A DNA stretch of 64,000 nt from Pseudotabrizicola sp. (GTDB lineage: Bacteria; Pseudomonadota; Alphaproteobacteria; Rhodobacterales; Rhodobacteraceae). The stretch covers positions 47,365 to 111,364 of the forward strand of contig NZ_JAUSNR010000007.1 of the NCBI RefSeq assembly GCF_030656345.1. Reading direction: 5' to 3'. A model generated the notes under the pieces. The model made no database searches. It was given only the letters and a program-made list of their open reading frames with translations, and had not been told where the DNA came from. The translations under genes were made by a program, and so were the position numbers. Positions 889 through 64,000 of the stretch are shown here, piece after piece (position 1 is the stretch's first letter; each line of letters opens with the position of its first letter).

Positions 889-2181
889 TCAGCCCCGGTC
901 CCGCAGGCTGTAATAGATCAGCGCAGCAGTTGCCCATGCCATCAGCAAAAAGCCCAGGATCATCGACAGCAGTATGAACCGGCGCGGAAACTCGGCATCC
1001 TGCGCCTTGGTGGGCGGGATATAGGCGGCCAGATACAGCGACTGGCGGTTGGCGTTCGACACGGCGGCCTGCCGTGCGGCAAGGGCTGCGGTGTAATTGC
1101 GCTGCGCAAATTCCAGATCGACGCTCAGCCCTTCGTATTGTGCAATCATTTCGGGGTAGGTGCTGTCAGACAGATCCGTGGTGGCACCGAAAAAGTTACG
1201 CTCCTGATCGATGCGGTCGCGGATCACGGTGATCCGGCGTTCCAGCTGTGCGCGGCGCGGATCATCGACGCGGGTTGACGGGTCCAGCAGATCAAGCTCG
1301 ACCAGCGCCTGCGCCAGTTGTTGCTGCAGGTTGGACACCACGCCGAGCCTGCCCTGAATATCGGCGATCGGATCGACGATCCGGGTCTGGGCGCGGAACA
1401 CGGTCAGCGCACCACGCGCCACCCGCAGGCTTTCGACCGCATCCGCCAGCTCCCGGTCGGCATTGGCCAGCGCCTCGCGCCGGGCGGTGTCGTTCAGCTG
1501 GTTGATCATGGTCTGGCTGGTTTCAAGAATGACCATGGCGATGTTTTGCGCGGTGTCAGGGTCCAGCGCCTGAACCGTCAGGTCGATCAGCCCCGACGAG
1601 GAATCATAAGACAGGCGCAGAACCCGTTTCCAGAAGCCGAACAGCTCTTCCGTCGTGGCATCTGGCCAGATCGAATAGACCGGATCATAGGGCCAGCCCT
1701 GCGCATAATGGGCGCGCAGATCGATGCGGGCATCGACCTGTTCCATCATGGTCTGGCTTTGCATGAATTCATGCAGCACCCCGGCGTTCACGCCTTGGCT
1801 CCCGCCGGTCAGAAACGACAACCCGCCCAGAATTGCACTGGCGGTGTTGCCGTCTTCCTGCCGGATGGTGAACCCCGCACGTGAGGCATACTGGTCATTG
1901 GCCAGCACAAACAGATAGAGCGCGCAGAGGATCACCGGCACCAGCACCATGGCCCCGAAAGACAGCATCAGCCCGTAGTGCCGCCGCTGCAATTTGGCGG
2001 GGCCGGCGACGGGCCGCATCTGCACAGCCGGTGCGGCGGGGATGGGGTTGGGGGCGGCGGGGGGCACCTGGACCGGGGGAACCACGGTCATGGGTCTTGG
2101 CGTGGGTCGGGGCGCATCAACCGATGCGTCTTGCGGTTTTGCCGGTTCGGTCAAGGCAGGCCCGTCCTGAATAATTTGCAC
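889..2181 (-). CDS. Capsule polysaccharide export inner-membrane protein (KpsE/CtrB/Wzz-like)
   Basis: N- and C-terminal TM segments flanking a coiled-coil periplasmic region; RRFILLSMILGFLLMAWATAALIYYSLRDR C-terminus. Confidence 0.8.
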   Translation of the reverse strand: MQIIQDGPALTEPAKPQDASVDAPRPTPRPMTVVPPVQVPPAAPNPIPAAPAVQMRPVAGPAKLQRRHYGLMLSFGAMVLVPVILCALYLFVLANDQYASRAGFTIRQEDGNTASAILGGLSFLTGGSQGVNAGVLHEFMQSQTMMEQVDARIDLRAHYAQGWPYDPVYSIWPDATTEELFGFWKRVLRLSYDSSSGLIDLTVQALDPDTAQNIAMVILETSQTMINQLNDTARREALANADRELADAVESLRVARGALTVFRAQTRIVDPIADIQGRLGVVSNLQQQLAQALVELDLLDPSTRVDDPRRAQLERRITVIRDRIDQERNFFGATTDLSDSTYPEMIAQYEGLSVDLEFAQRNYTAALAARQAAVSNANRQSLYLAAYIPPTKAQDAEFPRRFILLSMILGFLLMAWATAALIYYSLRDRG

Positions 2182-2286
2182 TCGTTACACAGATCCAGCA
2201 TACCTGAAGGCAGTTTCATCAGACAAGGACCATTTCCCTTGGCAGAGGCCGGCACACCGCAGCGGACAGAGGCACCGCTTTTGCCC

Positions 2287-3075
2287 ATGGACCGCCCAAG
2301 GCCGGGGCGGTCGTGGGCCACATTCCGCACGGTTTCCGCCCTGATGCTGCGCGAGATGTCCACCCGCTATGGCCGCTCGCCCGGGGGGTATTCCTGGGCC
2401 GTGCTGGAGCCGGTGGGGGCGATCATCGTGATGGCGGTCGGGTTCGGGCTGATGTTCAGCAGCCCGCCACTGGGGTCGGATTTCCTGTTGTTCTATGCCA
2501 CCGGCTACCTGCCGTTTTCGCTGTATCAGTCGATTGCCAACACCACCGCCCGGTCCCTGTCGTTTTCAAAACCGCTGCTGATGTACCCGGCGGTGACCTG
2601 GATGGACGCGCTGCTGGCCCGCTTTCTGCTGAACACGCTGACCGGGTTTCTGGTCACCATCATTATCTTTTGGGGTATTCTTGCGGTGTCGCAGACCACC
2701 ACCATCCTTGACCTGCCGACAATTGCTCTGGCGATGGGACTTTCGGCCCTGCTGGGGCTGGGGCTGGGCACGATGAACTGCTACCTTGGCACCCGGATCG
2801 AGGTCTGGGATATCGCCTGGTCAATCCTGAGCCGCCCGTTGTTCATCGTATCTGGGGTGTTCTTCATCTACGAAGGCGTACCGGCGGCGGCGCAAAAGGT
2901 GCTGTATTACCTGCCGTGGATGCATATCACCGGACTGGCCCGCGCCGGGTTTTACCCCACTTACCGACCGGAATATGTGTCAGTGCTTTATGTGTTGCTG
3001 TGGTGCATGCTGCCGCTGTGCTTTGGTCTGATGCTGCTGCGGCGCTATCACAAGGACCTGCTGAACCGGAACTGA
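2287..3075 (+). CDS. Capsule polysaccharide export ABC permease (KpsM-like)
   Basis: MDRPRPGRSWATFRTVSALMLREMSTRYGRSPGGYSWAVLEPVG...; multiple TM segments; internal ATG of the 1978-3075 ORF chosen. Confidence 0.8.
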   Translation: MDRPRPGRSWATFRTVSALMLREMSTRYGRSPGGYSWAVLEPVGAIIVMAVGFGLMFSSPPLGSDFLLFYATGYLPFSLYQSIANTTARSLSFSKPLLMYPAVTWMDALLARFLLNTLTGFLVTIIIFWGILAVSQTTTILDLPTIALAMGLSALLGLGLGTMNCYLGTRIEVWDIAWSILSRPLFIVSGVFFIYEGVPAAAQKVLYYLPWMHITGLARAGFYPTYRPEYVSVLYVLLWCMLPLCFGLMLLRRYHKDLLNRN

Positions 3076-3212
3076 GGGGGGCTGGGGCCAGATCAAAGGT
3101 TTGCGGCACGCCTGAACTGCCGTTTTCACAGAATGCGGGGCGCAGGCGGGTTGCAGACAACCCTGTGCCGGGCCGCGCAGGGCCTGACAAAACACGAAGA
3201 TGCAAGGACAAG

Positions 3213-3287
3213 TGGCAGCCCGTAGGGGAGTCGAACCCCTCTTCCCAGGTTGAAAACCTGGTGTCCTAACCGATAGACGAACGGGCC
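3213..3287 (-). tRNA. tRNA-Glu (anticodon TTC), CCA encoded
   Basis: Reverse complement GGCCCGTTCGTCTATCGGTTAGGACACCAGGTTTTCAACCTGGGAAGAGGGGTTCGACTCCCCTACGGGCTGCCA; anticodon loop TTTTCAA, TTCGACT T-loop. Confidence 0.95.
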
Positions 3288-3351
3288 ACGCTGTCGGTGG
3301 GGGGTGTGTAGTGGCACCGGCCCTGACTCGCAAGAGGAAAAACGCGGGGCG

Positions 3352-5100
3352 TCAGCCGGTCGCGGGGGCGGCGTCTTCGAGCCGCAGCTGCACCTTGGTC
3401 CGGCCGCCCCAGTGGTTCAGTTCCAGCCGTCCGGCCAGATGAAACCGGCGGTGGCCGGCCCCGTCCAGCGCGGGGCCGAGGGGCGTGTCATAGGCCCCGA
3501 AGGCCATCGCCTCGACCTGCGCGCCCATACCGTCAGACACTGCCAGTTTCAGGTGCTTGTCGCCGATCCGGCGCGGGGTGACCGCCACATCGGCAAAGGC
3601 GAAACGCGGGGCGGGGGCACCCTGGCCGAAGGGACCGGCAGCCTCGATCTGCTCGACAAAGGCGGGGGTGCAGGCCGATGGCATCAGCAGACTGTCGATC
3701 CGCAGGGCGCGCGGGCCTTCGGTGCCTGCGCCCTGACGGCCCAGCAGGTCGGACAGCCGCGCCATTGCTTCTTCCAGCCGGTCTTGGGCGACTGTCAGGC
3801 CAGCGGCCATCTTGTGCCCGCCGCCCTTGATCAGCAGCCCCTCTGCCGCCACGCGCTGCACCGCAGCCCCCAGATCTACACCCGCGACAGAGCGGCCCGA
3901 GCCCTTGCCCTCACCCCCCTCCAGTCCGATGACGATGGCGGGGCGGTTGAACGCCTCTTTCAGCCGGGCGGCCACGATGCCAACGACGCCGGGGTGCCAG
4001 CCCTCAGACGCGGCCCAGATCAGCGGGGCATCCAGACCCCGCGCCTCGGCCTGCGCCATCGCCTCTTCGCGGACGCGTTCGGTGATCTCGCGGCGCTCAG
4101 AGTTTAGCTGGTCCAGCCGGGCGGCCATTGCCGCCGCCGCGCGCGGGTCATCGCTGGCCAGCAGCCGCGCGCCCAGATCGGCCTGCCCGATCCGTCCACC
4201 CGCATTCACCCGCGGCCCCAGCACGAAGCCAAGCGCATAGGGCGTGGGGGCCTGATCCATGCGCGCCACATCGGCCAGCGCCACCAGCCCGGCCCGTTCG
4301 CGCCGCGCCATCACCTTCAGGCCCTGCCGCACCAGTGCCCGGTTCACCCCGATCAGCGGGGCCACATCGGCGACGGTGGCAAGCGCCACCAGATCCAGCA
4401 TCGCCATCAGATCGGGGCCTTGCACGCCATCTGTCCGCAGGCGGCGGTTCGCCTCGACCAGCATCAGGAACACCACGGACGCCGCACACAGATGCGCCAG
4501 ATCGCCGGACTCGTCCTGCCGGTTGGGGTTCACCACGGCCACGGCTGCGGGCAGGGTATCGGTGCCAAGGTGATGGTCCAGCACCACCACATCGCAGCCC
4601 GCCGCCGCAATTGGCTCATGCGAAAGCGTGCCGCAATCGACGCAGAGGATCAGCTCATGCGCCGCCCCCAGCGCCTGCATCGCGGGCACATTGGGGCCGT
4701 AGCCTTCGTCAATGCGGTCGGGGATATACAGCGTCGCCTCGCGCCCCATCGCGCGCAGCCAGATGATCAGCAGCGCCGCCGAGGCCCCGCCATCGACATC
4801 GTAATCGGCAAAGACCGCGATGCGCTGGCGCTGCTTCACCGCGTGCAGAAAGCGGTCGGTGGCGGGGGCCATGTCGCGCAGGGTCAGCGGGTCGGGCAGC
4901 AGGTCGCGCAGGGCAGGGGCCAGGAAGGCAGGGGCATCGCCGGGCGAGACCCCGCGCCGGACCAGCGTGTGGCACAGGGCCATCGGCAGGCGGGTCTGTT
5001 GCGCCATCGCTTCGGCCAGACGTTCTTCCTCGATCTCGGGGCCAGTCCAGCGGCGACCAAGGACAGAAGCATCGACGTTGAGGAATGCGCGCGGGTTCAT
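3352..5100 (-). CDS. recJ: Single-stranded-DNA-specific exonuclease RecJ
   Basis: ADYDVDGGASAALL (DHH), VDCGT, VLDHHLGTD, VNPNRQ, GGGHKMAAG motifs; start set at internal Met (MNPRAFLNV) because the upstream part of the ORF translates an intergenic repeat. Confidence 0.92.
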   Translation of the reverse strand: MNPRAFLNVDASVLGRRWTGPEIEEERLAEAMAQQTRLPMALCHTLVRRGVSPGDAPAFLAPALRDLLPDPLTLRDMAPATDRFLHAVKQRQRIAVFADYDVDGGASAALLIIWLRAMGREATLYIPDRIDEGYGPNVPAMQALGAAHELILCVDCGTLSHEPIAAAGCDVVVLDHHLGTDTLPAAVAVVNPNRQDESGDLAHLCAASVVFLMLVEANRRLRTDGVQGPDLMAMLDLVALATVADVAPLIGVNRALVRQGLKVMARRERAGLVALADVARMDQAPTPYALGFVLGPRVNAGGRIGQADLGARLLASDDPRAAAAMAARLDQLNSERREITERVREEAMAQAEARGLDAPLIWAASEGWHPGVVGIVAARLKEAFNRPAIVIGLEGGEGKGSGRSVAGVDLGAAVQRVAAEGLLIKGGGHKMAAGLTVAQDRLEEAMARLSDLLGRQGAGTEGPRALRIDSLLMPSACTPAFVEQIEAAGPFGQGAPAPRFAFADVAVTPRRIGDKHLKLAVSDGMGAQVEAMAFGAYDTPLGPALDGAGHRRFHLAGRLELNHWGGRTKVQLRLEDAAPATG

Positions 5101-5165
5101 GCGGGCGGTCTGCACCAAGCGGGACGGGGCTTCAACCGTAAAGGCTGCGTTTGCGGGGAGGGCGG

Positions 5166-5206
5166 CTGCCTCCGGCGGGAGTATTTGGCAAAGCTGCAAT
5201 GCAAAG
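5166..5206. repeat. Dispersed intergenic repeat, copy A
   Basis: GCCTCCGGCGGGAGTATTTGGCAAAGCTGCAATGCAAA. Confidence 0.75.
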
Positions 5207-5237
5207 GGGCGCAGGGTTGGCCTGCGCCCCGACGGGA

Positions 5238-6218
5238 TCAGCGGCGGATCGGGTTGCGGTAGGTCATGCGGCGAACCGAGCCGGTTTTTGACCGCATCAG
5301 AATGGTTTCAGTCGTCAGGTGGCCGGGCTCGCGCTTGATGCCGGCCAGCAGGCTGCCGTCGGTGACGCCGGTGGCGGCAAAGATCACGTCGCCGCGCACG
5401 AGGTCATCGCGGGTGTAGACGCGGTCGAAGTTTTCGATCCCTGCCTTGCGGGCGCGGGCGCGTTCATCGTCGTTGCGGAACAGAAGTTTGCCGAAGAACT
5501 GGCCGCCCATGCATTTCAGCGCCGCCGCCGCCAGCACGCCTTCGGGGGCACCGCCGGAGCCCATATACATGTCAATGCCGGTCAGGTCGGGCTCGGCGCA
5601 ATGCATCACGCCCGCCACGTCGCCGTCGGTGATCAGGCGGATCGCGGCGCCGGTGGAGCGGATTTCGGCGATCATTTCCTCGTGCCGGGGGCGTTCCAGC
5701 ACGCAGACGGTGATGTCATTGGTGGAGCAACCCTTGGCGGCGGCCAGCGCCGACACCCGCTCGGACGGGGTCATCGTCAGCGTGACGGTGCCGATGCGGT
5801 GGCCGGGGCCGATGGCGAGCTTTTCCATATAGACATCCGGCGCGTGCAGGAGCGAGCCGCGCGGGGCCATGGCGATGACGGTCAGGGCGTTGGGCATATC
5901 CTTGGCGGTCAGCGTGGTGCCTTCCAGCGGGTCGAGCGCAATGTCGACCGCCGGGCCATTGCCGGTGCCGACCTCTTCGCCGATGTAGAGCATCGGGGCC
6001 TCGTCGCGTTCACCCTCGCCGATCACGACCACGCCTTTGATGTCGAGCAGGTTCAGCTGGTCGCGCATGGCGTTGACCGCCGCCTGATCGGCGGCCTTTT
6101 CATCGCCGCGACCGATCAGCCCGGCGCTGGCCAGAGCCGCCGCCTCGGACACGCGGGCGAGGCCGAGGGACAGCAGGCGGTCCTGGAACTCGGCGACTTT
6201 GGGCGGGGCGACGGTCAT
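5238..6218 (-). CDS. glpX: Class II fructose-1,6-bisphosphatase (GlpX family)
   Basis: GRGDEKAADQAAVNAMR, VVIGEGERDEAPMLYIGE, DPLEGTT. Confidence 0.93.
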   Translation of the reverse strand: MTVAPPKVAEFQDRLLSLGLARVSEAAALASAGLIGRGDEKAADQAAVNAMRDQLNLLDIKGVVVIGEGERDEAPMLYIGEEVGTGNGPAVDIALDPLEGTTLTAKDMPNALTVIAMAPRGSLLHAPDVYMEKLAIGPGHRIGTVTLTMTPSERVSALAAAKGCSTNDITVCVLERPRHEEMIAEIRSTGAAIRLITDGDVAGVMHCAEPDLTGIDMYMGSGGAPEGVLAAAALKCMGGQFFGKLLFRNDDERARARKAGIENFDRVYTRDDLVRGDVIFAATGVTDGSLLAGIKREPGHLTTETILMRSKTGSVRRMTYRNPIRR

Positions 6219-6581
6219 GATCTGTCCTTTGATCTGGAAATGCTTGTGCGCCGGTTTAGCCTGCCCGGTTGCCGTGGGGCAAGTCTGATGGCGCTAACCG
6301 GGGCGGGAAATTGGTGGGGTGCCGGGGGTTTTGGCAGATATCGTGCAGGGGCGCTCACTGTGACGCAGCTTTTTGGTGTTCAATAAAAACAAGGGGTTGG
6401 TGTTTGTGTTTTCATGAAATTTTAAGGGTTGCGCGGCGGGAGGGGCAGGACCGGGGGGCCAGCCCCCCCGGCCCCCCGGGATATTTATGAACAGATGAAT
6501 GGGGGGGCGGAGCATCTGGGGCGGGCTGGCCGCGCCCTGACGGGGGCTGGGCTGATGGCGGACGGTCCAGCCCTGCCCCGG

Positions 6582-7892
6582 TCAGACCTCTTCGATGCGG
6601 ATGGCGACGGGGGCGCCGATCAGCACGCCGGTGTGGCCGAACTGGGCCAGTGCGAAGGCCACATCGGCGGGCTGCGCCTTGTGGGTCACGATCAGCACCG
6701 TCGCCTTGTTATCCGCCTCGTTCGGCTGGTTCAGCTGGCGCATCTGGTCGATGGAGATCCCCGCCTCTCCCAACGCGGTGGCGATCTTGGCCAATGCGCC
6801 GGGTTTGTCGAGCAAGGTCATGCGCAGGTAATAGGGGGCGGGTGTGGCCGATTTTGCGGCGACCGGCGTGGCGAGGGACGCCGCTGGGCGGCCAAAGGTC
6901 GACAGACGTGTGCCGCGCGCGATGTCGATGACATCGGCCATCACCGCGCTGGCGGTCGGGCCTTCGCCGGCACCGGCACCGCGCATCACGATCTGGCCGA
7001 CGCTGTCGCCTTCAAGCACCACCATATTTGTGCCGCCCTGCAACTGGCCCAGCGGGCTGTCGGCGGGGACAAGGCAGGGCGTCATGCGCTGTTCCAGACC
7101 GCGCCCTGTCATCTGCGCCACGCCCAGCAGCTTGATGTGATAGCCCATGTCATCGGCAAGGTTGATGTCTTCGATCGAGACATTGCCGATGCCTTCGAGT
7201 TCCACCTTGTCAAAGCTGACTTTGGTGCCAAAGGCGATGGCGGCCAGCAGCGACAGTTTGTGGCCCGCGTCGATGCCGCCGACATCGAGGTTGGGGTCTG
7301 CCTCCAAGTAGCCCAGCTGCCGCGCCTCTTCGAACACGGTTTCATACGGCAAGCCGGAGGCTTGCATCCGGGTCAGGATATAGTTGCAGGTGCCGTTCAT
7401 CACGCCCATGACACGGCGCATCTGGTTGCCGGCCAGACCTTCGGTCAGCACCTTGATGACCGGGATGCCGCCTGCGACCGCAGCCTCGAACCGGATCACC
7501 CGGCCCTGCGCCTCGGCGGCCACGGCAAGCGCGTGGCCGTGATGCGCCAGCAGGGCCTTGTTGGCGGTGACCACATCCTTGCCCGCCGCGATGGCGGCTT
7601 CGGTTGCCAGACGGGCCGGCCCTTCATGGCCGCCCATCACCTCGACAAACACGTCGATGTCATCGCGTTGTGCCAGCGCCAACGGGTCGGTTTCCCATGG
7701 ATAATTGGACAGGTCAGCATCGCGGTTCTTTTGCGGATCGCGGGCCGAGACGGCGGTGATCACCACCGGGCGGCCGGCGCGGGCAGAGATCAGATCGGCG
7801 TGGCCCTGCACGATTTTGACCACACCGATTCCGACGGTTCCCAGACCGGCAAGACCAATGCGCAGGGGGGCGGTCAGGGAGGGGGCGGTCAT
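6582..7892 (-). CDS. hom: Homoserine dehydrogenase
   Basis: GLAGLGTVGIGVVKIV Rossmann start, GIPVIKVLTEGLAGN, MNGTCNYILTRM, C-terminal ACT-like region. Confidence 0.94.
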   Translation of the reverse strand: MTAPSLTAPLRIGLAGLGTVGIGVVKIVQGHADLISARAGRPVVITAVSARDPQKNRDADLSNYPWETDPLALAQRDDIDVFVEVMGGHEGPARLATEAAIAAGKDVVTANKALLAHHGHALAVAAEAQGRVIRFEAAVAGGIPVIKVLTEGLAGNQMRRVMGVMNGTCNYILTRMQASGLPYETVFEEARQLGYLEADPNLDVGGIDAGHKLSLLAAIAFGTKVSFDKVELEGIGNVSIEDINLADDMGYHIKLLGVAQMTGRGLEQRMTPCLVPADSPLGQLQGGTNMVVLEGDSVGQIVMRGAGAGEGPTASAVMADVIDIARGTRLSTFGRPAASLATPVAAKSATPAPYYLRMTLLDKPGALAKIATALGEAGISIDQMRQLNQPNEADNKATVLIVTHKAQPADVAFALAQFGHTGVLIGAPVAIRIEEV

Positions 7893-7967
7893 GGGGGCAA
7901 CTCCGTATCAGCGTGTGCAGCGGTCTTAGCCTGCCTGCCGGGCCAAGGCAACGCGGCGCGGGTGTGG

Positions 7968-8249
7968 CTATTGGCTGCGCAGGGCGGCGGCGCGGGCGCG
8001 CAGGCGGGCGGCGCGGGCGTTGACAGGGTCGATGGCCCCGGCACCGCTGCCCACCGCATCGGCCTGCGCCAGAATGCCGCCCAGCGGCACCAGAACCGGG
8101 GGTGGGGCTGTGGTCTGGGTGTTGGTGCGGGCCGCGATATCGGGCAAGGGGGCGCAGGCCGTGACCGCAAGGCCGATCAGGCCCGCAAGCAGGGCGCGGG
8201 GGGTACGGCGGGGGCGCGGTTGGGCAAGCGGCATCATCGGGCAATCCAT
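7968..8249 (-). CDS. Small putative lipoprotein
   Basis: N-terminal hydrophobic segment with lipobox-like LAVTAC; length about 93 aa. Confidence 0.5.
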   Translation of the reverse strand: MDCPMMPLAQPRPRRTPRALLAGLIGLAVTACAPLPDIAARTNTQTTAPPPVLVPLGGILAQADAVGSGAGAIDPVNARAARLRARAAALRSQ

Positions 8250-8402
8250 GTCAGCCAGAGCGGCTGGGTTGCGCCGACCCTAGGCCGGTCCAGCGGGACG
8301 GGCAAGGGGGCGGGGTGGGGACGCGCGCCGGCGCAAGCCCCTATCGCTGCGGCAAGCGCTGCTTTATGGCTGCGGGTCAGAGTGCCAACCCCGGAGCCGC
8401 CG

Positions 8403-8891
8403 ATGCCTGACACAAGCGCTGAAATCCTGCCCGTGCTTGCCGAATTGCGCCCGTCGCCGCCGCGCCGGGTGGTGGGGGTGGTCCTTCTGGCGGTGCTGGG
8501 GGCGTCGCTGGTATATCTGGCGCTGACCTATCCGGCGGCGGCGATCGGCTGGACGGTGTTCCTGCTGGGCTTTGGCGCGGCCTGTCTGTGGCTGTCGGTG
8601 CGGATGTGGCAGTCGACCGGGCAGGGCCTGATGCTGACCCGCGCGGCGCTGAGCGATCACCACGGGGTGGTGCTGGCGCGGGTGGATCAGATCCGCGCCG
8701 TGCGCCGGGGGGTGTTTGCGTTCAAGCCGGCGGGGGGGTTTACGCTGTTGCTGGCAGAAGCGGCCCCGCGTGGCTGGGCACCGGGGCTGTGGTGGCGGCT
8801 GGGCCGGTCAGTGGGGGTGGGCGGCGTCACCCACCGGCACGAGGCGCGCTATATGGCCGAGGTGCTAAACGCGATGATCCGCAAGGAGTGA
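8403..8891 (+). CDS. Hypothetical two-TM membrane protein
   Basis: MPDTSAEILPVLAELRPSPPRRVVGVVLLAVLGASLVYLAL...; start placed inside the 6429-8891 ORF. Confidence 0.6.
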   Translation: MPDTSAEILPVLAELRPSPPRRVVGVVLLAVLGASLVYLALTYPAAAIGWTVFLLGFGAACLWLSVRMWQSTGQGLMLTRAALSDHHGVVLARVDQIRAVRRGVFAFKPAGGFTLLLAEAAPRGWAPGLWWRLGRSVGVGGVTHRHEARYMAEVLNAMIRKE

Positions 8892-8909
8892 GGGGGCTTT
8901 GCCTGCGGA

Positions 8910-9530
8910 TCAGCTGCAGGCGTAGCCGCGCAGGCAGATTTTCGACATGAAGCGCGGCCGGGTCACGACAACATGGTACATGCGGTCCAGATCGAGTGCC
9001 TGCATCGCCCAGTTGGTCAGGCTGAACATCGGTTCAAACTCGACCGTCGCCTCGACCACGATCAGCGCATCGCCATCATACATGATCGGAAGATGGCTTT
9101 GAATCGTCGACAGAGTGGCGGTGGTCAGCCGCGGGATGGTGGTGGTGCTGGAGCGCGACCACAGCACCCGGTAGCCGTTGGTATCGTCGAAAAAGATGCT
9201 GGTGACCCGGGTGTTGGTCGGCAGTGTGTCGCCCATCATGTATTGCATGGTGCCGAACATGCCGTTCACATACGCCTCTGGCACGCCTTGCAGATCCTGA
9301 TTGCGGGTCAACAGGTCAGACACCGAATAGGCGGCCTTTTGCGAGCGGTTGATCACATCAAAGGCATCCCAATAGGTGAAGGTGCCCAGGATGCAGAACA
9401 GGTACAGCGGCAGCATCATCAGCATTTCGACCGAGGCGACGCCGTGTTCGTCGCGGGCAAAACCGCGCATGCGCGAGCAGAGCCGGGCGCGAAGGCGGGT
9501 CAACGCTGCTGTTACAAGTGTGGGGCGCAT
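8910..9530 (-). CDS. TadE/TadF-like pilus assembly protein
   Basis: RDEHGVASVEMLMMLPLYLFCILGTFTYWDAF: TadE-type N-terminal segment. Confidence 0.75.
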   Translation of the reverse strand: MRPTLVTAALTRLRARLCSRMRGFARDEHGVASVEMLMMLPLYLFCILGTFTYWDAFDVINRSQKAAYSVSDLLTRNQDLQGVPEAYVNGMFGTMQYMMGDTLPTNTRVTSIFFDDTNGYRVLWSRSSTTTIPRLTTATLSTIQSHLPIMYDGDALIVVEATVEFEPMFSLTNWAMQALDLDRMYHVVVTRPRFMSKICLRGYACS

Positions 9531-9550
9531 CGTAGGTATCTCTCTGATCC

Positions 9551-10087
9551 TTAAGACGGTTCGTTGACGAAGCTGGAAATGGCGGCGATGCCGATGCCGC
9601 CGGTGCTGTCTTTTTTCAGCGTGCGGCCGAACATCGTGTTCGGCAGCAGCACCGGAATGATGATGCAGGCGCGCACCAGCATCAGTTCCTGCTGACGGCC
9701 GGGTGAGAAGGTGACGACGGGCTGGATATTCTCGTCGTTGTTGACGCAGGTGACCGGGGTCTGCGGCATTGCCCAGGTGGTGGTGTTGACTGGTTGCAGT
9801 TCGATCATCATCTGGTCTTCGCAGTTGCCGATCATGACAGTGCGGCTGCAGATCGCGGTCTTCAGCTTGTCGGCGGTCGGCTCGTCGACCAGTCCCAGCC
9901 GCAGCTCGCGGATCGACAGGTCCAGCGCGTGATCCAGCATGACCGATTTGATCGAGATGATCCCCAGCTCTGCCGCCCAGAAGAACAGGCCCAGATACAG
10001 CGGGAAGAACAGGGCGAATTCCACCGAGGCGAGGCCGCGTTCGTCCTTGCGGAACCGGCGGAAGTGGGTGCGGATGCGGCGGGTCAT
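9551..10087 (-). CDS. TadE-like pilus assembly protein
   Basis: MTRRIRTHFRRFRKDERGLASVEFALFFPLYLGLFFWAAELG. Confidence 0.75.
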   Translation of the reverse strand: MTRRIRTHFRRFRKDERGLASVEFALFFPLYLGLFFWAAELGIISIKSVMLDHALDLSIRELRLGLVDEPTADKLKTAICSRTVMIGNCEDQMMIELQPVNTTTWAMPQTPVTCVNNDENIQPVVTFSPGRQQELMLVRACIIIPVLLPNTMFGRTLKKDSTGGIGIAAISSFVNEPS

Positions 10088-55195: not shown

Positions 55196-55503
55196 AGCCA
55201 AGCCCAGCATTTCAACGTGTGATGGCAGCATGTGAAGCAGGGAACCTGCAGACCTGTTCCAGCAATGGAAGAAAGTCTGCACGCCTCCATGCCACCGCCT
55301 CAGGTTTTTCAAACGCCATGCCCGGATCCTGCACCCGTCAGGAACCAGAACCGCAGCCTCCGCACTGTCTGTAACCCGACCTTTGGGGGCGATGTTGACG
55401 GCATAGGCAGGCGAGGTGCATCCGCAGCCAGTGCCAAGCGTTTTCACGTGGTGGGCCTGGATGATGGGCATATAAGAAAATGCCCAAAACAATCAGAGGG
55501 GAG

Positions 55504-55517
55504 TGGCGGAGAGGGTG
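55504..55517 (-). other. Candidate att site: 14-nt tRNA-Ser 3'-end fragment
   Basis: TGGCGGAGAGGGTG; reverse complement CACCCTCTCCGCCA looks like a serine tRNA acceptor/CCA end; no tRNA body follows; 160 nt before the integrase. Confidence 0.5.
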
Positions 55518-57775: not shown

Positions 57776-57878
57776 GAAAACCGCCACCCGAGGGCGGCGG
57801 CGTATTCGAGATGCGGTATGAGGATACCCCATACGATACCACCACTTGCCCGAGGCATCAACAGCCGAGGCAGATACA

Positions 57879-58193
57879 ATGAAAATCAATTGGGCGCTTA
57901 CCGCCTTCGATATCACAAAAACCGATGGCCAGACCTTCCGGGCACTGGTGAAAGGTCGCGACCTCTGGGCGCTGCAGAACCTGATTGCAGCGGGGGCAAA
58001 TGGCTGCACACCAATAGATCACCCCGGCCCCAGATGGTCTGCATACGTCAAGAATTTGCGCGATGCTGGCTTTGAAATCGACACCATCACCGAGACCCAC
58101 AAAGGCGAATTCCCCGGCCATCATGCCCGCTATGTGCTGCGCTCGAGCGTTAAATGCGCTTTCGACTCCATGCAGATGGAGGGTGCAGCATGA
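57879..58193 (+). CDS. Small hypothetical protein, possible winged-helix domain
   Basis: ALVKGRDLWALQNLIAAGANGCTPIDHPGPRWSAYVKNLRDAGFEIDTITETHKGEFPGHHARYVL. Confidence 0.6.
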   Translation: MKINWALTAFDITKTDGQTFRALVKGRDLWALQNLIAAGANGCTPIDHPGPRWSAYVKNLRDAGFEIDTITETHKGEFPGHHARYVLRSSVKCAFDSMQMEGAA

Positions 58194-58516: not shown

Positions 58517-58728
58517 ACAACGTCATCGCATTGCTTCCCAGAACGCTGCCGGGCGGTTTTCGGGTGGAGTATTCCCCCGAGGTATCCGAACTAGGCGGGC
58601 TGCAGGTTATCATTTGGAAGGATGCCGCACGCAATGAAGGCTTTTGCTTCAGCGCGCCGACGCCCTTTGACGCTTATCGGATCCTGACCAAAATTGCGGA
58701 GCAATCCAAGAGGCGCGCGCATGGGTGA
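58501..58728 (+). CDS. Hypothetical protein
   Basis: MADTVNNVIALLPRTLPGGFRVEYSPEVSELGGLQVIIWKDAARNEGF; overlaps both neighbours. Confidence 0.45.
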   Translation: MADTVNNVIALLPRTLPGGFRVEYSPEVSELGGLQVIIWKDAARNEGFCFSAPTPFDAYRILTKIAEQSKRRAHG

Positions 58729-60907
58729 AGCCTTCCCGATCCGACAAGAGGCCGCGCTATCACAGATGCCCGCTCAAAACGCGGCAAGCTGGGCGCGGGC
58801 TGGCTTCCCGGTGTTTCCTTGTGGGCCGAGCAAGCAACCCTTGACGCCGCACGGGTTCAAGGATGCGACCGCCGATCTGGGCGAAGTCGCAGCATTCTGG
58901 CAGGCGCACCCCAAGGCGCTCGTGGGCATCCCCACCGGGGGGGCAAGCGGGTTATTCGTGGTGGACCTCGACACCGACCGCGACACCGGCGAGGCCATAG
59001 GGGAGGCTTCCTTTGGCGCGCTGGGCCTGTCCTACTTGATCGGCAGCGTTCCGACCGTCGCAACCCCAAGCGGGGGGCGGCATCTGTATTTCCGTGCCTG
59101 CGGGGTTGGAAGCACCACCGGCAAACTAGGCCGGAAAATCGACACGCGGGGCGATGGTGGATACATCATTGCGCCCGGCTCTGTAACGCCGCTGGGGGCC
59201 TATCGGCTCTTGAACGGCTCAATCACCCCTGACGCCCTGACAAGCGTTCCTGCGGCCATTCTGGAACCCCTGCGGGGCAAGCCTTCAGACACCGCTGCAA
59301 CGCTGTTTCAGGTCGCCACAGAAGGCCACTATTCTTTTGTTGGCGACCGTCACAAGGCCGACCAGACCGAGGTGCAGGAAATCCTCTCCTACATCCCGCC
59401 AGACTGCGGGTATGACGAATGGTGCGGGGTGCTGATGGGCCTGCATGACCATTTCAGCGGATCGACTGCGGGCCTCGACCTTGCCGATGGATGGAGTGCG
59501 CAGGGGTCAAAGTATCAGCCTGGCGAACCCGCTGCAAAGTGGAACAGTTTCAAGGCTGGCGGCGGCAAGGGGTGGGGCAGCGTCTGCGAGTTGGCCCGGC
59601 AGAACGGGGCCGATCTGGCAGATATTGCTCGCCGCCACAGAGGGCGGCAGACAACGCCAATGTTTAGCGCGGCAGCGGGCCGAGGCGGCGGCATCGAGGC
59701 TGCGCCGAAGGCCGCTAGGTCAAAGCGACAAGACCGCGTGAAGTGGTGCGCCGATGTCGCCTGCACCATTTTGGAGGAAAGCCCCGACTGGGCGGAGGTG
59801 CTAGCGCATGATGAATTTACCGGGCTGGATATGCTCTTGAAGCCTATCCCCGGAACGACTGTGCCGCGCTCGACCTTTGCCGCCCGCCCCCTGACTGACA
59901 ACGATATCACGGCGGCGGTGCGTTGGTTTAACCGCAACGGCTTTCCCGATGCCACGAAGAACGGCACTGCGGACGCCCTTTTTCTGGTAGCGGGGCAAAA
60001 CATCATTTCCCCGGTGCGCCATTTCCTTGAGGGGCTGGCGTGGGATGGTGTTCACAGGGCGGGGGATTGGCTTACCCGGTATTGTGGCGCGGAACCTGCT
60101 GACCTGACCGCAAAGGTGGGCAAGGCTTGGCTGGTGGCGGCGGTGGCGCGGGCCTTGAGGCCCGGTTGCAAGGCCGATTGCGCATTAGTGCTGGAAGGCA
60201 GACAGGGGGCCGGAAAGTCATCCATCCTGCGCGCCTTGGCCGGGGATGACTGGTTTAGCGATAGCCTGCGCGACATGCACGGCAAGGATGCCAGCGCTGC
60301 GCTGCGAGGCAAATGGATTATCGAATTGCCGGAACTGTCGGCAATGCGCCGATCCGACACCGAAGCCGTCAAAGCATTCCTGAGCCGCACCGAAGAACGC
60401 TACCGCCCCGCCTATGGCCGCACAGAGGTTATCGAACCCCGGCGGTGCATCTTTGCCGGAACCACCAACCGCAATGATTACCTGACCGATGACACAGGGG
60501 GGCGGCGGTTCTGGCCGGTTGTGGTGGGTGCGGTGGATCTGGATGGCCTGACCCGCGACCGGGAACAACTCTGGGCCGAAGCTGTGGCGTTGTATCAGGC
60601 CGGGGAACGCTGGTGGCTCGACCGTGCAGACGAAGGCACAGCAGCGGCAGTGGTGGCGACACGGGCGGCGGATGACCCTTGGGCGGCTGATGTGCTGCGC
60701 GTAGTCGATGGCCTGTCAGAGGTAAGCACCCGCGATGTGTTTCAGCTTTTGGAAATCCCGTTGGATCGACGCAACAAGGCCGACGCCATGCGGATTACCG
60801 GCATCATCACCCGCGCGGGCTGGGCACGTTCTGGCAAGTTTACGAGCGGGCCGAGCCGTGACCTGTCGCGGTTCCTGCCACCGGGGGGGGCGGCAAGCCA
60901 TGTATGA
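58721..60907 (+). CDS. Bifunctional prim-pol primase / VapE-type superfamily 3 helicase-like protein
   Basis: N: FVVDLDTDRDTGEAI, VATPSGGRHLYFRA, GGYIIAPGS; C: VLEGRQGAGKSSILRALAGDDWFSDSLRDMHGKDASAALRGKWIIELPELSAMRRSDTEAVKAFLSR, FAGTTNRNDYLTDDTGGRRFWPV. Confidence 0.92.
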   Translation: MGEAFPIRQEAALSQMPAQNAASWARAGFPVFPCGPSKQPLTPHGFKDATADLGEVAAFWQAHPKALVGIPTGGASGLFVVDLDTDRDTGEAIGEASFGALGLSYLIGSVPTVATPSGGRHLYFRACGVGSTTGKLGRKIDTRGDGGYIIAPGSVTPLGAYRLLNGSITPDALTSVPAAILEPLRGKPSDTAATLFQVATEGHYSFVGDRHKADQTEVQEILSYIPPDCGYDEWCGVLMGLHDHFSGSTAGLDLADGWSAQGSKYQPGEPAAKWNSFKAGGGKGWGSVCELARQNGADLADIARRHRGRQTTPMFSAAAGRGGGIEAAPKAARSKRQDRVKWCADVACTILEESPDWAEVLAHDEFTGLDMLLKPIPGTTVPRSTFAARPLTDNDITAAVRWFNRNGFPDATKNGTADALFLVAGQNIISPVRHFLEGLAWDGVHRAGDWLTRYCGAEPADLTAKVGKAWLVAAVARALRPGCKADCALVLEGRQGAGKSSILRALAGDDWFSDSLRDMHGKDASAALRGKWIIELPELSAMRRSDTEAVKAFLSRTEERYRPAYGRTEVIEPRRCIFAGTTNRNDYLTDDTGGRRFWPVVVGAVDLDGLTRDREQLWAEAVALYQAGERWWLDRADEGTAAAVVATRAADDPWAADVLRVVDGLSEVSTRDVFQLLEIPLDRRNKADAMRITGIITRAGWARSGKFTSGPSRDLSRFLPPGGAASHV

Positions 60908-60909
60908 GA

Positions 60910-61142
60910 GCGGAACCTTGTGCGGAACCTCATGCGGAACCTGCCCTGAAAAACCCTGTAAAAACAGACATACCCCGCAAATGCGGAACCTCGCGGAACC
61001 TTTTCCCACACATTTCACCAGAACATCTAACCAACTGAAAATAATGAGGTAATCGGGTATATGTCTGTTCCGCAGGTTCCGCACTTAAGGGGGTTTGGTG
61101 GTTCTGGACGAAATGTATGGAAAAAGGTTCCGCAGGTTCCGC
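60910..61142. repeat. Iteron-like array: five GCGGAACCT (forward) and four inverted (A/C)GGTTCCGC-type units around an AT-rich core
   Basis: Forward units at 60910, 60922, 60934, 60983, 60993; inverted units at 61065 (CTGTTCCGC), 61074, 61125, 61134; long inverted repeat 60983-61024 / 61101-61142. Confidence 0.85.
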
Positions 61143-61184
61143 ACTCCCAGACGCAGGCACGTTCAAAACAGAAGGAAAGCGACC

Positions 61185-62876
61185 ATGACGACCGAAGAAA
61201 AGCGACAGGATCTCATAAGACAACAGCAGGCGGCAATTGCTCGCGCGGAGAGACGCATCGCCACACAACAGACGCAAGGCGGCGGCGGGGGCATTGACTA
61301 CGATGCTCTTGCGGAGAAAGCGCTGGCTGCGCGTAAAGCCCAGCCCGCAGGTACAGCGGTTAACCCGTTTGCGGAGTTTGCGCCTAAGCCCAACCCGTTT
61401 GCAAAGTTCGCACCCGAGAGTCCCATCTCCGGTCAGAGCATGAATCCGGAACAGATAGCCGCGCGCGCCCGCGCGCGCCGTAGGCTCGCTGAGCAACAAG
61501 CACAGGCGCAGGCACTGGAAGGCCCAAGCGTCTCCAGTGTGGCGGGAAACTTTGGAGCGGGAACGCAAACTGGCATCGCGCAAATGGCTGGCTTCCCAGT
61601 CGATGCCGTCACCGGCGCAATCAATGGCGTGGGCGAGATGACAGGCATGTGGGGGCCGATTGAAAGCCCATTGGGCGGTTCCGCCAGCATAGACGCTGCG
61701 CTACAGCCCTTTCGGGCGAACATCCCTGAACCACAGAACACCACAGAGCGCATGGCACGGCGCGTAGGAGAGGAAGTAGGGGCGTCGGTTGTCGCTGCGC
61801 CCGTGGCAATGGGCAGCGCCGCTGTACGGGCTGCTCCGGGCTTGTTCGCGGGCACTGAGGCGGCGTCTGCCATCGGTTCGGGCGCGGGAGCGGCAATTGC
61901 CAATGAGATTGCGCCTGGCAGCACGACTGCGGAAATCGTCGGGCTCCTTGCTGGTGGCGTTCCTGCGGGCTATGCGGCGGGCCGCGCGCTGGGTGCCAAC
62001 GGATCAGATGCTGTGGTGCGCGGTGGGATTGAAGACCAACGTATGATGGCAGCGGACGCATATGCGCCCGTGCGGGCAGACACTCGGGTTCTGCCTCAAG
62101 ATTCAGTTGATAACTTTGCGCTGGGCATTTCAAACCGGATGAGTGCGGAACGGATCAACTCCCGCCTGCAGCCGTCATCGTCTGCGGTTCTTGATGCAAT
62201 TGTGGCTGATACTGCAAACCCCATGCGGATTGAGGATATTGAAAACCTGCGTCGCCTGACTGAGAGCAGTATTCCTGGCACCGCTGCGCCAGCGGATCGT
62301 CGCCTTGCTGGCATCATGAAAAGCGAAATCACCGACTACCTGAACAACTTGAACGATCCGATAGCCGATAGCTTGCGAGAAGGCCGGGACGCGCATCGCC
62401 GCGCAACAGCGGCGCAATCCATTGATGACGCTTCCACAAAAGCGGTGCGGCGCGCTGCCAGCACAGGAAGTGGCGGAAATGAAATCAACGCCATGCGGCA
62501 AAATCTGCGCAGCATTCTGGACAACCCGCGCAAAGCTCGATCCTTCAAGCCGGAAGAACTGGCCTTGATGGAGCAAGTCGTTCGCGGAACAGGCGGGCAA
62601 AATGCCCTGCGCAGCCTTTCGCGCCTCGCCCCGACCAGTGGCGGGCTTTCGGCCATGCTTGGCGTCGGGGGCGTGATGGCAAGCCCTGCCGTGGCGCTAC
62701 CAATCATGGCCATAACTGAACTGGCAAAGGCTGGGGGGGAGCGGTCAACACGCAGGGTTGTTGACGCGCTTATGCAGAGCATAGCCCCTGACCGAGTGCT
62801 GAAAACCGGCGAGACAGGTATAAACTCGGTTGTCAGAGCCTTGCTGGCAGGCCGCGCTATTGCTGGGGGCGAGTGA
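61185..62876 (+). CDS. Hypothetical Ala/Gly-rich protein, possible phage internal/ejection protein
   Basis: Coiled N-terminus, NPFAEFAPKPNPFAKFAPES repeat, hydrophobic Gly/Ala helices, long helical C-terminus. Confidence 0.55.
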   Translation: MTTEEKRQDLIRQQQAAIARAERRIATQQTQGGGGGIDYDALAEKALAARKAQPAGTAVNPFAEFAPKPNPFAKFAPESPISGQSMNPEQIAARARARRRLAEQQAQAQALEGPSVSSVAGNFGAGTQTGIAQMAGFPVDAVTGAINGVGEMTGMWGPIESPLGGSASIDAALQPFRANIPEPQNTTERMARRVGEEVGASVVAAPVAMGSAAVRAAPGLFAGTEAASAIGSGAGAAIANEIAPGSTTAEIVGLLAGGVPAGYAAGRALGANGSDAVVRGGIEDQRMMAADAYAPVRADTRVLPQDSVDNFALGISNRMSAERINSRLQPSSSAVLDAIVADTANPMRIEDIENLRRLTESSIPGTAAPADRRLAGIMKSEITDYLNNLNDPIADSLREGRDAHRRATAAQSIDDASTKAVRRAASTGSGGNEINAMRQNLRSILDNPRKARSFKPEELALMEQVVRGTGGQNALRSLSRLAPTSGGLSAMLGVGGVMASPAVALPIMAITELAKAGGERSTRRVVDALMQSIAPDRVLKTGETGINSVVRALLAGRAIAGGE

Positions 62877-63838: not shown

Positions 63839-64000
63839 CGGCCAAGGGGTGTCGTTCTAACCGACATTCCCCAAGTGGCCTGCCGCTTGACTTCAAGATC
63901 GCCTGATTTTGCTCGCTGGGCAAGCGTTCTTCGCCCCGAGCGGTGTCTGTCGTCGCGCAAACGGCCGAAGTCGGGTGGATCAAGCCTCGAACCCGCAGCA

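Follow-up and report, generated by a model that had tools for sequence, protein, structure and literature searches.

The window, a stretch of 64,000 nucleotides from a contig of Pseudotabrizicola sp., carries genes for an integrase, an AlpA protein, and a PrimPol-VapE protein, followed by an array of short repeats (iterons), and these stand in the order of a PICI (int, AlpA-type regulator, pri-rep, ori). The neighbourhood differs from that of PICIs in having no recognised PICI repressor layout: of the scanned proteins encoded between the two genes int and VapE, none was recognisable as a repressor. A 115-aa winged-helix protein (HTH_91, E = 9e-36) encoded at 57846-58190, between AlpA and the PrimPol-VapE gene, may be a regulator or may read the array in place of the initiator. 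The end of the VapE frame at 60907 agrees with the earlier note on this DNA, and the array lies directly 3' of its stop codon: the first unit begins 3 nt past the stop, and the array stops short of the next start codon at 61185, which is preceded by a ribosome-binding site (AGAAGGAAAG). The gene that starts there (61185-62876) encodes a 563-aa protein matching phrog_21712 as well as proteins from phages of Sulfitobacter, Octadecabacter, and Ochrobactrum; the labels of the phage matches conflict ('major head protein' in some, HNH endonuclease in others). The features considered below are:

58721 to 60907, plus strand: predicted initiator, with an AEP-type PrimPol, PriCT_2, a VapE helicase, and a C-terminal winged helix (from Pfam, the AF2 model, and PDB matches)
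60909 to 60942, plus strand: left outer iteron set, three GCGGAACCT units at 12-nt spacing
60965 to 60976, plus strand: arm of the short inverted repeat, CAGACATACCCC, with its partner at 61056-61067
60982 to 61001, plus strand: left inner iteron set, two units at 10-nt spacing, with the same unit and place in the related locus L047
61002 to 61024, plus strand: iteron-adjacent block TTTCCCACACATTTCACCAGAAC, with an inverted copy at 61101-61124; a TTTCCCAC-type block after the inner units is also found in the related loci L047 and L048
61021 to 61065, no strand assigned: AT-rich core (64% AT), candidate melting site
61065 to 61082, minus strand: right inner iteron set, one degenerate (7/9) and one exact unit at 9-nt spacing
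61125 to 61143, minus strand: right outer iteron set, two exact units at 9-nt spacing

Eight exact copies of GCGGAACCT are packed into 233 nt, five of them forward (60910, 60922, 60934, 60983, and 60993) and three inverted (reading AGGTTCCGC, at 61074, 61125, and 61134), together with one further degenerate copy. All but one of the nine units listed in the earlier note are therefore exact, the exception being that at 61065 (CTGTTCCGC), which matches at seven of nine positions. Both inverted repeats described there were recovered: the 42-nt one, pairing 60983-61024 with 61101-61142 (3 mismatches and two 1-nt indels), is composed of an iteron pair and the adjoining block TTTCCCACACATTTCACCAGAAC, and the shorter one pairs CAGACATACC (60965) with GGTATATGTCTG (61056) across a 2-nt insertion. 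The centre, likewise said to be AT-rich, has 64% AT in the core as against 36% in the window, a level met by 0.2% of 45-nt windows, and it is flanked by the five forward and the three (plus one degenerate) inverted units, the arrangement sought in an origin of the SaPI/PICI Pri-Rep type. Such an array is far beyond chance: 8 copies of a 9-mer per 250 nt, counted on either strand, compare with a maximum of 2-4 in 100 dinucleotide shuffles of the 64 kb and of 3 in the window once the array is removed. It is also unique in the assembly, since the paired pattern GCGGAACC-N1-6-GCGGAACC has no second site in its 4.7 Mb.

Because the large inverted repeat folds in RNA, the region might instead terminate transcription, or act as an RNA attenuator, in the interval from VapE to the 61185 gene. 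Its predicted fold is indeed stable (about -92 to -103 kcal/mol over 243 nt), as follows from the inverted repeats it contains. However, the terminator scan gave no terminator-like site on the plus strand, the Rfam scan of the region returned no match, no T-run stands behind the arms of the long inverted repeat, and the repeats 60965/61056 and 60983/61101 cross each other and so cannot make one hairpin. Two comparative observations argue in the same direction, namely that the downstream genes differ in L047, which keeps the array, and that homologous arrays are unrelated in sequence and equal in geometry. A role in RNA is accordingly very unlikely. A promoter scan of the region produced nothing usable.

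The protein encoded upstream of the array contains the Pfam domains PrimPol (PF09250), PriCT_2 (PF08707), and VapE (PF05272), and its sole strong PDB match by sequence is 7PDS ('Similar to D. nodosus vapE'). Residues 372-728 were modelled with AF2 from 59 sequences at a mean pLDDT of 92 (a model from the single sequence, with pLDDT 32, was discarded), and the best fold match of this modelled helicase half is again 7PDS ('PriRep1 with dsDNA', E about 1e-21), followed by the NrS-1 polymerase (1e-8). As the best match by both sequence and fold, 7PDS identifies the protein as a homolog of the SaPI PriRep helicase. Its last ~75 residues are predicted with high confidence to form a winged helix with the succession helix-helix-helix-strand-strand (in model numbering, helices 284-291, 299-305, and 315-327 and strands 331-335 and 345-348).

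The earlier note had likened the locus to P4 alpha-type and PICI primase-helicases with their origins. P4 too is a satellite replicon with a primase-helicase, P4 alpha being the less suitable model and the SaPI/PICI Pri-Rep origin the right match; PICI and P4 initiators are reported to share only distant homology (PMC6092414). As in the PICI and SaPI Pri-Rep origins of EcCICFT073, SaPIbov1, and SaPI5, the array is placed directly 3' of the primase-helicase gene. The rep-ori segment of EcCICFT073 replicates, deletion of the ori reduced replication, and the oris of E. coli PICIs 'always' have two iteron sets around an AT-rich region (PMC6092414). In our positive control on EcCICFT073, CTACC-type units were found at ~+13/+22 and +91 to +113 and inverted ones at +144/+155 and +223/+232 after the primase stop, and the units of the window's array occupy matching positions. 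The differences from PICI and SaPI origins concern the sequence of the unit and the host, which is alphaproteobacterium-like and neither E. coli nor S. aureus. Another related system is Cch2 of SCCmec, a self-loading helicase that uses its C-terminal domain to bind direct repeats lying downstream of the cch2 gene (PMC7581432), although this putative ori has three 5-nt iterons and Cch2 belongs to another helicase subfamily, with a separate A-family polymerase as primase.

The array forms part of an integrated element. A 93-nt direct repeat with 99% identity is present at 55425-55517 of the window and on contig C4 (C4:1344-1436; locus L161), where it overlaps the 3' end of a tRNA-Ser(CGA) gene (C4:1423-1512), so that the 3' end of this tRNA gene was most likely the integration site, with the integrase probably lying just inside the element. 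The duplicated stretch includes ~75 nt of the tRNA 3' flank and is longer than a usual att core. An IS3-family transposase pair (L161, 130-1318) adjoins the distal att copy and, together with the end of the contig at window position 64000, is the probable reason why the assembly is broken at the element's right end. This end is missing from the contig, and a prophage and a satellite are both possible as the type of element. Elements of such kind carry cos/pac or resolution sites, which would make a packaging or recombination site another reading of the array. It is extremely improbable, given that the array keeps a strict position relative to the initiator gene, whether in phages, in elements, or in plasmids, and that the integration site is located elsewhere, at 55425-55517.

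The earlier note had made its proposal depend on conservation of the units beside homologous primases, and such conservation was found: the nearest relative shares the unit, and arrays of this architecture follow VapE genes elsewhere. This relative, L047, comes from another genus of the same family and shares with the window the integrase (73% identity), AlpA (40%), and VapE (66% over helicase and C-terminus). In its array, GCGGAACC stands at +83 and +93 and, in inverted form, at +238; partial units occupy +35 and +248, and the TTTCCCAC block is present as well. None of the genes that follow the array in the window was found in L047, which carries instead a ResIII protein and an N6/N4 methylase; the array thus moves as part of a module with integrase, AlpA, and initiator, independently of the gene behind it. 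These two L047 proteins (1035 aa and 965 aa, respectively, the latter a DNA methylase; 2166-10003, minus strand) resemble a restriction-modification cargo on a related integrative element. In a second relative, L048 (65% identity), the units are TGCACCACCT, the geometry is equal, and a phage capsid gene lies downstream. Two iterons accompanied by the TTTCCCAC block occur in 2 of 397 genomes of the family, the window's and that of L047, in both cases beside the initiator. No universal second motif was found across loci, the TTTCCCAC block being common mainly to the window, L047, and L048.

A scan of genome contigs with the single protein yielded only two distant loci. We gathered a wider set of VapE loci by protein search alone, disregarding repeats, which left 65 after clustering at 80% identity. 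At least four copies of one 8-mer within -30 to +600 of the VapE stop were present in 54% of these 65 loci, compared with 3.0% of 3,352 control windows drawn from these loci; the figure was 3.1% behind other long ORFs and 0.2% in shuffles. Loci that fail this exact 8-mer test (about 46%) may have degenerate units, an ori elsewhere, or none. When 300-nt bins from -3000 to +3000 of the stop were compared, 43% of the loci had such copies in the bin 0 to 300, 6% in 300 to 600, and 0-2% in any other bin. Geometry was analysed in the 30 loci with most copies (at least 5, plus L047), in 29 of which the core gap could be scored. Sets facing in opposite directions were present in 26 of the 29, the median core gap was 103 nt, and the mode of the unit spacing was 9 nt; the core was AT-richer than the gene in all 29, a comparison made with coding sequence, so that part of this AT-richness is simply intergenic. 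Almost every locus has a unit word of its own, and the geometry is what the loci have in common: inward-facing sets with ~9 nt spacing that enclose an AT-richer core of roughly 100 nt. Close to the right inner units, a TATATG/CATATA box seemed recurrent and was dropped after it showed no enrichment over shuffled cores. A literature search combining VapE and iterons retrieved no paper.

The VapE genes with an array on their 3' side belong to prophages, to elements, and to small plasmids. In the 4.3-kb plasmid pGO128 of Gluconobacter oxydans, which has five annotated genes, VapE is the only recognisable replication gene and, as in the window, is followed by an array (within 2-247 nt), made of a different unit. 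Unlike those of the window, the pGO128 units all have one orientation (in the exact-match count), and its VapE is short (a 417-aa frame), with no room for a PrimPol part. Three plasmids of 12-26 kb, L062 (pKNA06), L064, and L065, also have an 8-mer array after the VapE gene; some of them bear phage-like genes (transglycosylase, DUF2213) and are possibly phage-plasmids.

Across loci, similarity of the units did not correlate with that of the C-terminal domain (Mantel p = 0.26) and only weakly tracked that of the ATPase (Mantel p = 0.04). The words change faster than the C-terminal domain. Three loci, L070, L071, and L075, have C-terminal domains 59-68% identical and ATPases 81-85% identical, and three different iteron words. 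Since covariation does not prove that the winged helix reads the unit, the array might, with low probability, be recognised by a different protein and would then be an operator, partition, or copy-control site bound, for instance, by AlpA or the 57846-58190 winged-helix protein; the element does encode such DNA-binding proteins besides its primase-helicase. Against this, arrays lie 3' of VapE at loci with different neighbours, the short VapE genes of plasmids have them too, and known homologs bind their own iterons through the C-terminal domain (PMC7581432). An operator or partition site would moreover leave the strict link with the initiator gene unexplained, and we regard this alternative as quite unlikely.

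We conclude that 60909-61143 is very probably the replication origin of the element, as the earlier note had proposed, a reading supported by the conserved architecture, the PriRep1-like initiator, and the equal layout of an experimentally tested PICI ori. It would belong to the SaPI/PICI-type class of origins, a kind already known. By analogy with SaPI/PICI homologs, the C-terminal winged helix of the PrimPol-VapE protein would bind the GCGGAACCT units, giving rise to two oppositely facing initiator assemblies, one on each inward-facing iteron set. The AT-rich core between the two assemblies would be melted by the helicase rings, which would then load on the strands thus opened, and priming by the fused primase would start bidirectional copying of the element after its excision.

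The results go beyond the probable location of the origin of one integrated element: VapE genes of prophages, integrative elements, and small plasmids are repeatedly followed by the architecture that has been proven in satellites of staphylococci and E. coli, and this family-wide rule, together with the variety of units, is the more interesting result. The virulence-derived name 'VapE' is misleading for many of these proteins, which the adjacent iteron array marks as replication initiators, and the array provides each of them with a predicted and testable binding site. Pairs or groups of similar initiators with different units (the window and L048; L070, L071, and L075) make specificity directly testable. 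Whether the VapE family at large uses a self-contained replicon module, with an iteron origin in its 3' flank, a fixed geometry, and a very fast turnover of words, seems to us evenly balanced; if true, the family would offer a natural data set on the iteron-recognition code of phages, satellites, and small plasmids and on their origin incompatibility groups.
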